A stretch of DNA of 64,000 nt from Flectonema sp. DT1601 (lineage: Eukaryota; Euglenozoa; Diplonemea; Diplonemida; Diplonemidae). The DNA is taken from the NCBI GenBank assembly GCA_964019425.1, contig OZ025812.1:759027-823026 (forward strand), in the 5' to 3' direction. Position numbers and translations under genes: made by a program. Below the pieces are notes generated by a model. That model saw only the letters and a program-made list of their open reading frames with translations, made no database searches and was not told the origin of the DNA. Below, piece after piece: positions 26,904 to 29,057 of this stretch (its first letter is position 1; every line of letters starts with the position of its first letter).

Positions 26904-27560
26904 ATAAATACAGGTGGGGTCCCAGAGTACCTACATCCTCCCTTCGTACCATTTGAAGCAGGTCTGGAGGGATTCAGAATCTCGGGAACTCCTGCTATAT
27001 TCTGAACGCAGCGCTCCAGTGCCTATGCAAGGGCATGCCTCTACCAGATTGCAGCAAATCGTCTGAACACCTGGCAGCCTGTGTCTTATGCAATCTGCGG
27101 GAACTGAAGCGTTCAGGGTCTGGTTCCGCTGCGAAGAAACTATGGGAGTGGGTGAAACCACGCTGCGGACCAGGACAATCAGAAGCTGAACACGCACTGT
27201 CACAGCTGCTCGAAGCGATCGAGGAGATGGGAGCACCACCAGTCGACTGTAACGCAGCCCCGCACGTGTCGAGTCTGTGAAGACACACACACGAAACGGA
27301 ATAGAACACCCATCCTCCGACTGAACCCTGGCCAAACGCAAGCCGCAGCCTGTGCTACAACGTCGACCAGCCCGGCGGACTTTGTCTGCCCGATTTGCAA
27401 GTCGAGCTCAGCGACGGTCACTACATCGGTAGACGAGTTAGCCCGATCACTGTTCTTTGGATTCAACGAGGGACATTTCGGAGATCCCGAAGCCAAAGAA
27501 AAGGTCAGCATACCGGCATCCTTCGTAGACACTTCGAGCCGCCTGTACACCCTGACTGGA
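26904..27560 (+). other. Module B copy 3: USP Cys-box and zinc-ribbon region
   Basis: Two open stretches with hallmarks of a ubiquitin-specific protease (C19). One (about 26960-27280) contains NLGNSCY then LNAALQCL, matching the Cys-box (GNTCYxNxxLQxL) with the catalytic Cys at 26993-26995. The next (27243-27560) has CRVC and, about 130 bases on, CPIC, matching the finger zinc ribbon, then SRLYTLTGVIQH leading into the His-box frame at 27561. Copies 1 and 2 lack the Cys-box part. I treat the module as a decayed element and do not claim one continuous product. Confidence 0.7.
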
Positions 27561-29057
27561 GTGATCCAACACACCAGACACAGCGAGTCTTCGGGTCATT
27601 ATGTATCGTACACGAGAAACGGAAGGGGGGGATGGCTGATTCAGGATGACTCGACCGAAAGAATTTACACATCGGAAGTCACCCAACTGAGTCCCTGTGT
27701 CGCCCTGTACTTGAGACGAGAACAACCTTCCTCCGGCGCACCGAAATCAAGATGGAAACCAGCACCCTTTGACAGGAAACCAACCTTCTACTACGGAGTC
27801 GCGGAAGGCAGATCCCCAGGAGTGTACACCACATGGGAGGAAACGAAGAGGGAGGTGTCCAACTATAGGGGCGCCGTCCACAAAAGATTCGTCCTGCGGG
27901 AGTCAGCCCAGCGATTCGTGGAGAGATACAACCCTCCGAAAGGGGGACCTGTAGTCACACCACCGCCAGGTGACAAATGGTACGCAGTGGTCAGGGGCCG
28001 AAAGACGGGTCTGTACGACTGCTGGCGGGAAGCGAGCTCGATGGTGAACGGGTACAGCAAAAACCAGTACAAGGCCTTCGACTCGCGGGAAGAAGCCTCT
28101 CTGTATTGGTGGGACCACATGGCAGGAGGACCCCAGCAGGACTCTCCTCGCATGTGCCTTTTCTTCGCCAGTCACAAGAACTCGGCCACCGGGAAGACGG
28201 GAGCGGCTGCCTGCCTGTTAGACACGCTCCTACACAAACTGACGGCTAGCTGGGTCGCGACACTCGACACCGCAGACCTCGGATCGGCCTCTTACTACGC
28301 CGCCCTCAAGGGAATCCAGGAGGTGAGTCAGCGGAATAGGAACACCACCTGGAGCTGCAGAGGAGACATGAGCGCATGGAGCGTGACGTCACGGACGAGA
28401 CTTGTTGGAGCTGTACCGGCCACATGGAGCTTTCTTGACCAGCCGAATGTCAACAACAACTGTGCGCAGTTTAAGGCTGAGGAGGCGTCCTCCCAAGAAT
28501 GTTACTCACTGACGGATGTGCAGAGACGAGTCACGGACCTGGAAAGAGAGTTGGGAGTGAGCCTGACCCCGGAGCGGGTGACGGGTCCAGAAGAAACGCC
28601 GGCGAAGCCAGTCCAGCAGAGCAAGAAGCCGAGATCACCTGACTCTGATCCGCAGGCAGAATCCACCTCTGCCAAAAAACCGAAAGCTGAGGCAGACCGT
28701 CCATCGCTTACCGCAGCCGACCCTGATGGAAGCCCGAGGTCAACGGCCAGCCCGAAGAATAAGAAGCAATGGTCCCCTGGCTCAGACTCACAAGACGAGC
28801 CCGTACCATTGAAGAAGCCGAAGACATCTGTTTCGGAGGTGGCCCAGGAAGCTACAGACCCTCCGGAGAAAGTAGGACTCGATTCCTCCGAAGAACCAGC
28901 TAACACCCACATGGAAGGGGAGCATGCCTCCGGAGAACTAGCAGACACCTTCACCAAGGAAGTGCGTGATACCTCCGATGAACCAGCAGACAGCCTCACC
29001 AACGAAGAACATGATGCCGCCGTAGAACCAGCAGGCACCCTCACGGAAGGAGAAGAG
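27561..29057 (+). CDS. Module B copy 3: USP His-box, two hybrid-binding domains, RNase H-like fold, acidic tail
   Basis: This frame is open from 27243 and reads through IE to a stop at 29171. GHYVSY with GGWLIQDD is at residues 12-33 from the ATG at 27561. Hybrid-binding domains are at about 77-122 and 140-183, and the RNase H-like region at about 198-305. A basic tail follows, then acidic DxxEEPAD-type repeats (28860-29050) in the same frame, showing that the acidic tail belongs to this protein. It differs from copies 1 and 2 at many positions throughout, so it is an older paralogue. USP domains remove ubiquitin; hybrid-binding domains bind RNA/DNA hybrids. How the two would cooperate is unknown. 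Confidence 0.72.

Follow-up and report, generated by a model that had tools for sequence, protein, structure and literature searches.

The stretch at 26904-29057 derives from the C-terminal part of a LINE that is R2-like and encodes an RLE; where the element is intact, its product is a single giant polyprotein. Overall, the observations are probably best explained by a dead fragment of this polyprotein LINE together with the function that we propose for the intact product, that of a deubiquitinase tethered to nucleic-acid hybrids. The stretch lies in a window of 64,000 nt (the whole stretch of DNA that was analysed; Flectonema sp. DT1601, GCA_964019425.1, OZ025812.1, 759,027-823,026, forward strand), itself part of an 89.5-Mb assembly of 92 contigs whose gene content (two ubiquitin ORFs, many USP genes) is eukaryotic. 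We translated positions 26904-29057, tabulated the stop-to-stop frames and scanned them piecewise with Pfam. The fragment, called copy 3, and its parts are as follows.

26908..29054, + strand: copy 3, fragment of a family-1 LINE (blastn, gapped alignment)
26957..27277, + strand: Cys-box half of the USP in its own frame, with NLGNSCY at 26978-26998 (UCH profile, motif position)
27267..27653, + strand: zinc ribbon, His-box and Asp of the USP, in a second frame (UCH profile, alignment columns)
27267-27278 and 27387-27398, + strand: zinc-ribbon motifs CRVC and CPIC (motif positions)
27591-27614 and 27642-27653, + strand: His-box SGHYVSYT, and QDDS containing the Asp (motif positions)
27786..27929, + strand: hybrid-binding domain (HBD) 1 (PF01693; 1qhk)
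27975..28112, + strand: HBD 2 (PF01693)
28149..28484, + strand: RNase H fold lacking its catalytic acids (model of the homologous stretch from an intact copy, fold search, alignment)
28623..29057, + strand: charged tail ending in 45-base tandem repeats (translation, repeat listing)

A truncated copy among other element pieces

Copy 3 is 98.2% identical to an intact family-1 copy on contig C45 over 26908-29054 (blastn), lacks both ends relative to that copy and differs from it by indels of -1, +3 and -11 bases in a gapped alignment. As it is truncated at both ends and its Cys-box and His-box sit in separate reading frames, copy 3 is a dead element fragment. The USP Cys-box, zinc ribbon and His-box that an earlier note had read here are nevertheless real: all of these motifs were located, and the UCH profile (PF00443) matched both the Cys-box frame (26957-27277; 4.2e-5) and the second frame (27156-29168, 671 aa; 5.9e-6). 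In the peptidase C19 and HBD profile searches which that note had proposed, the His half exceeded the curated Pfam cut-off and the Cys half fell slightly below it; PF01693 also matched, in two stretches of the second frame (9.3e-30), bearing out the two HBDs, and HBD1 matched the N-terminal domain of RNase HI (1qhk) at 3.4e-7 in a PDB sequence comparison. The RNase H-like fold claimed alongside them is supported by fold search and by a model of the corresponding stretch in an intact copy, whereas Pfam gave no match to this part. A phmmer match to USP14 (0.006) was dropped as support for the USP, since chance matches to viral gp41 chains ranked alongside it (0.005).

Further pieces of the same elements are scattered through the window:

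17472..19163, + strand: copy 1, C-terminal fragment of subfamily 1b with the USP His half, HBDs, RNase H fold and tail (blastn, Pfam)
24081..25896, - strand: copy 2, C-terminal fragment of subfamily 1b, 98.9% identical (blastn, Pfam)
25897..26607, + strand: family-1 linker piece, head to head with copy 2, 98.5% identical (blastn)
33834..34960, + strand: fragment of a family-2 element with RNase H fold and HBDs (blastn, Pfam)

Copy 1 carries an internal deletion, and its pieces are 99.6% and 99.4% identical to 1b (blastn). In both copies 1 and 2 the identical 1b position is fused head to head to an inverted family-1 linker, and the two share this inversion junction (window 17471/17472 and 25896/25897). 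The family-2 fragment is 93.0% identical to the copy on contig C6, with PF01693 matched in 34655-34996.

Other sequence in the window is also repetitive. A-rich satellite arrays with a repeat of ~115-270 bp occupy 9783-13256, 20137-20827 and 30242-31869, and the same satellite borders the full-length copy on C63 and, on both sides, the one on C45. A second LINE type is present at 3-4268 (+), with RT and zf-RVT, and at 13597-15900 (-), with zf-RVT (Pfam), and a 1357-base tandem unit at 4544-7382 has matches at 4544, 5901 and 7258 and identical repeat rows at 5335 and 6692. Between 42000 and 64000 the longest ORFs are on the + strand, including two ubiquitin ORFs (51525, 52426), resembling the layout of genomes that are transcribed polycistronically. 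Neither an Rfam nor a tRNA scan gave a match in the 64-kb window.

Intact elements encode two predicted deubiquitinases in one ORF

A 360-residue piece of copy 3 had 106 matches in the assembly, many of them in open frames of 2000-4500 aa, the longest of which contain RT and OTU domains, as expected of the mobile element that the earlier note had suspected. We fetched from the assembly and translated the regions of five elements belonging to four families.

Family 1: contig C45, 3734 aa
Subfamily 1b: contig C17, 3210 aa, with 73% identity to the query piece
Family 2: contig C6, 2885 aa
Family 3: contig C63, 3992 aa
Family 4: contig C17, 4006 aa

All four families encode the same order of modules in one ORF: C2H2 finger, OTU, C2H2 finger, RT, CCHC knuckle with RLE, linker, USP, two HBDs, RNase H fold and charged tail. 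Pfam reported the OTU, RT, USP and both HBDs in all five elements (the family-3 OTU with a marginal score), whereas the C2H2 fingers and RLE were identified by eye, except for a weak Pfam C2H2 match in family 3. Family 2 has an additional RNase H-like stretch before the HBDs and family 4 one after them. The linker between RLE and USP is long in families 1, 3 and 4 and ~60 residues in family 2; other linkers vary freely, while the USP adjoins the HBDs in every element (5/5). Genome-wide, Pfam matched PF00443 at least 134 times and PF02338 at least 67 times. When the OTU matches listed were joined to the 114 of 134 USP matches listed, 29 of 67 were followed on their strand by a USP match lying within the span of one stop-free frame shared with the OTU (2257-5423 aa). 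By eye, the C6 copy of family 2 is inserted within a family-4 element. A separate 2798-aa frame on C12 (L039:2-2560, +), with an OTU close to the C-terminus and a helicase match that is very weak, is possibly of Helitron type.

The RT-RLE profile of the elements matched, as best among solved structures, the R2 protein 9nl3 (1.1e-14), with LINE-1 ORF2p at 7.7e-5; the R2 match over the RLE part by itself was weak (i-Evalue 1.7), and Pfam scans of the elements gave no RLE match. After the RT, the CCHC (C, C, H, C) and P.D ... D columns, the motif expected of an RLE, are invariant in the four aligned sequences. All seven 3' ends read (C45, C46, 1b on C17, C63, C25, C6 and C23) have a poly(A) run, beyond which the flanks differ among copies except for C45 and C63, both in A-rich satellite. 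A single fixed target site was rejected, as only these two of seven copies share a satellite flank; with the other copies elsewhere, there is at most an insertion preference for A-rich DNA.

A protein search, its candidates being proteins of ~420-1330 aa with longer relatives outside its reach, scored 7992 proteins and placed 598 relatives at E <= 1e-10; no OTU, USP or HBD appeared among the precomputed domains of the 120 listed of these 598. In a tree of the five RTs and 45 of 117 full-length relatives, a moderately supported branch (85/63; 86% of 200 bootstrap trees) set the five RTs apart on one side; those of families 3 and 4 have an unusual composition. Adjoining them is P0045, on a long branch; an OTU-like stretch spotted by eye at its C-terminus scored an hhalign probability of 4%. 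The tree agrees with a single origin of the module arrangement, which it would not by itself prove.

In the intact copies the USP is one domain, above the curated cut-off in all five elements (PF00443, 8.5e-10 to 8e-17). Its Cys-His-Asp triad is invariant in all seven aligned domains from the five elements, as are three of the four zinc-binding Cys (n=7), the fourth being Gly in two divergent domains, and a profile of the seven matched human USP36 over the whole domain (1.7e-28). In families 3 and 4 the RLE is followed by this second, divergent USP-like domain (L030:1911-2747, -, and L037:6733-7560, +); in family 4 it matched UCH_1 (6.1e-4) and UCH (0.017), both below the Pfam cut-off, and in family 3 it had no Pfam match, yet Cys, His and Asp are all aligned in place in both. 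An AlphaFold model of the joined USP-HBD-RNase H module (pLDDT 60, pTM 0.35; residues 1-91, with the Cys-box, <50) retrieved USP structures as top Foldseek matches (1.9e-12), and is too poor for domain contacts or detail. The OTU (PF02338) is above cut-off in families 1, 1b, 2 and 4; in family 3 it scored 21.4 bits against a cut-off of 23.3 in the element scan and 27.7 in the genome-wide scan. OTU Cys and His are present in 4/4, and the residue three before the Cys is Asp in three and Asn in family 3. With complete active-site residues, USP and OTU are both predicted deubiquitinases. Ulp1 (PF02902) was not reported by Pfam in the elements at E <= 0.1 or 1, where OTU and UCH appeared instead.

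PF01693 occurs twice in each of the five elements, as in copy 3. The HBD Trp is kept in 10/10 (both HBDs), and the Lys column, which we take to be the hybrid-contacting residue, is Lys in 5/5 for HBD2 and only 2/5 for HBD1. In the RNase H folds (n=7, positions by eye) the expected strand-1 catalytic acid is absent from all seven in the alignment, and the helix acid is kept only in the first fold of family 2; an active RNase H was rejected, the DEDD catalytic acids being missing. As its fold lacks these acids, the HBD-HBD-RNase H segment looks like a captured, inactivated RNase H1, and the dead fold could bind protein instead of hybrid.

We estimated constraint by dN/dS (Nei-Gojobori) from a single sequence pair, family 1 against 1b, with dS of 0.40-1.02. 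Values were 0.06 for RT+RLE, 0.11 for the RNase H fold, 0.18 for OTU with finger, 0.21 for the HBDs, 0.30 for the USP and 0.33 for the charged tail. By these values the RNase H fold is more constrained than the USP, which is the enzyme module with the weakest constraint and barely more constrained than the tail. Family 2 and a near copy on C23 have too few changes for a dN/dS judgement. The 3' UTRs of families 1 and 1b (L022, L025) are 98.9% identical over 698 bases despite a coding dS of ~0.5, as if ends had been swapped; subfamilies thus exchange parts.

Competing accounts of the protease and hybrid-binding modules

We propose that the element moves by target-primed reverse transcription (TPRT) and that the pseudo-RNase H1, two HBDs and a dead RNase H fold, would grip the RNA/cDNA hybrid at the target. 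The gripped hybrid would be shielded from host RNase H and the two deubiquitinases kept beside it, where they could deubiquitinate the protein that the element itself encodes, or else chromatin and repair proteins, and the intermediate would thereby last until second-strand synthesis. The earlier note's suggested role, shielding the intermediate or the element's protein from turnover, would fit the modules present. We regard the whole chain, from TPRT through hybrid holding and local deubiquitination to survival of the intermediate, as somewhat doubtful. The specific proposal that the captured dead RNase H1 anchors OTU and USP on the hybrid during TPRT, erasing at the insertion site ubiquitin that would recruit repair, silencing or degradation, is more tentative still, and we put its chances as low.

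OTU and USP might instead serve mainly as proteases that process the 2900-5400 aa product, with ubiquitin removal secondary, as some viral papain-like proteases both process polyproteins and remove ubiquitin. The single very long ORF and the position of the proteases on both sides of the RT-RLE core speak for this, but the cleavage site of eukaryotic USPs and OTUs lies behind a ubiquitin-like fold, and Pfam found no ubiquitin domain in the scanned pieces. Repeated IAGG motifs in the family-1 linker would also favour processing; they are absent from families 2, 3 and 4, and we rejected them as a cleavage motif. We rate this account as unlikely, and much the same holds for one in which the deubiquitinases only spare the element's protein from the proteasome and the HBDs and RNase H fold serve packaging or reverse transcription, without tethering. 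That account draws on the same anatomy, and since RLE-USP linkers are long in families 1, 3 and 4 the modules may act independently; the constant adjacency of USP and HBDs amid otherwise variable linkers, and the short family-2 linker, argue against it.

That the modules are chance-captured passengers without a role is very improbable: LINEs tolerate added sequence and this genome holds other OTU-bearing elements (L039), but the triad is invariant across families with an RT identity of 33%, and dN/dS is well below 1. A host gene with a USP fused to RNase H1 domains would explain why no RT is in frame with USP-HBD inside the window. It was rejected, and has a negligible probability, because intact relatives carry RT and OTU in the same frame; the 106 genome matches and the cut, frame-broken state of the window copies also oppose it.

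The hybrid-tethered deubiquitinase remains our preferred reading, and the predicted domains suggest a mobile element equipped to counter the host ubiquitin system. Two unrelated predicted deubiquitinases with low dN/dS beside HBDs make it testable whether ubiquitin removal at the reverse-transcription intermediate aids LINE integration. If true, an RNase H1 would have been converted from a nuclease to a binding module, within LINE frames that are unusually long (up to 5423 aa stop to stop).

Relation to known elements

A profile running from the USP to the C-terminus matched 65 proteins at E <= 1e-5. In this search for other proteins with the same domain order, likewise proposed in the earlier note, HBDs accompanied the USP only in P0122, P0123 and P0124. 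These three and P0130 show 67-100% identity over the matched region and appear to come from the same genome or a close relative; the remaining matches are annotated as or resemble cellular USPs, except P0176. A whole family-2 query limited to the USP-HBD region returned one protein, 99% identical. No LINE with OTU, USP or HBD was found in the literature searched, most subscription journals lying outside it. Ulp1 or RNase H has been described in related LINEs, and we could not find the OTU/USP/HBD combination in a LINE, which appears undescribed, in line with the earlier note's impression that no described family has this architecture.

R2 proteins (9nl3, 9dou, 8gh6) are the best solved-structure match for the RT-RLE profile, and to our knowledge R2 has no OTU, USP, HBD or RNase H module; unlike R2, the elements here are not confined to one insertion site. 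With eukaryotic RNase H1 they share HBDs followed by an RNase H fold, and the yeast enzyme has two HBD-type domains, but here the catalytic acids are missing and the segment follows a USP within the polyprotein of a LINE. Another retroelement polyprotein bearing a USP (hhalign probability 99%) is P0176, which is of Ty3/gypsy type and 1659 aa long; it differs in its LTR-type domains (RT, integrase and others) and has no HBD, and its USP seems to have been captured independently.

Proteases of the Ulp1 and OTU types occur repeatedly in transposons. The part of the Ginger paper seen (PMC2836005) describes OTU or Ulp1 in DNA transposons, including Ginger1 and Helitron transposons with OTU, and a Trichomonas transposase with C19; it only proposes a role for the ubiquitin pathway in transposition. 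As here, a ubiquitin-type protease is part of a transposon protein, but on that text these are DNA transposons with one protease each and without RT, whereas the elements here have two and an RT. Similar in layout, as far as the text seen of PMC4640811 goes, are NeSL and Utopia, RLE LINEs which like the present elements have N-terminal zinc fingers and a single ORF. Their protease, present in some members, is Ulp1-like where ours are OTU and USP, and their RNase H keeps its acids and precedes the RT, whereas here the acids are missing and the fold is C-terminal; that text mentions neither HBD nor USP, and the elements described here carry both.
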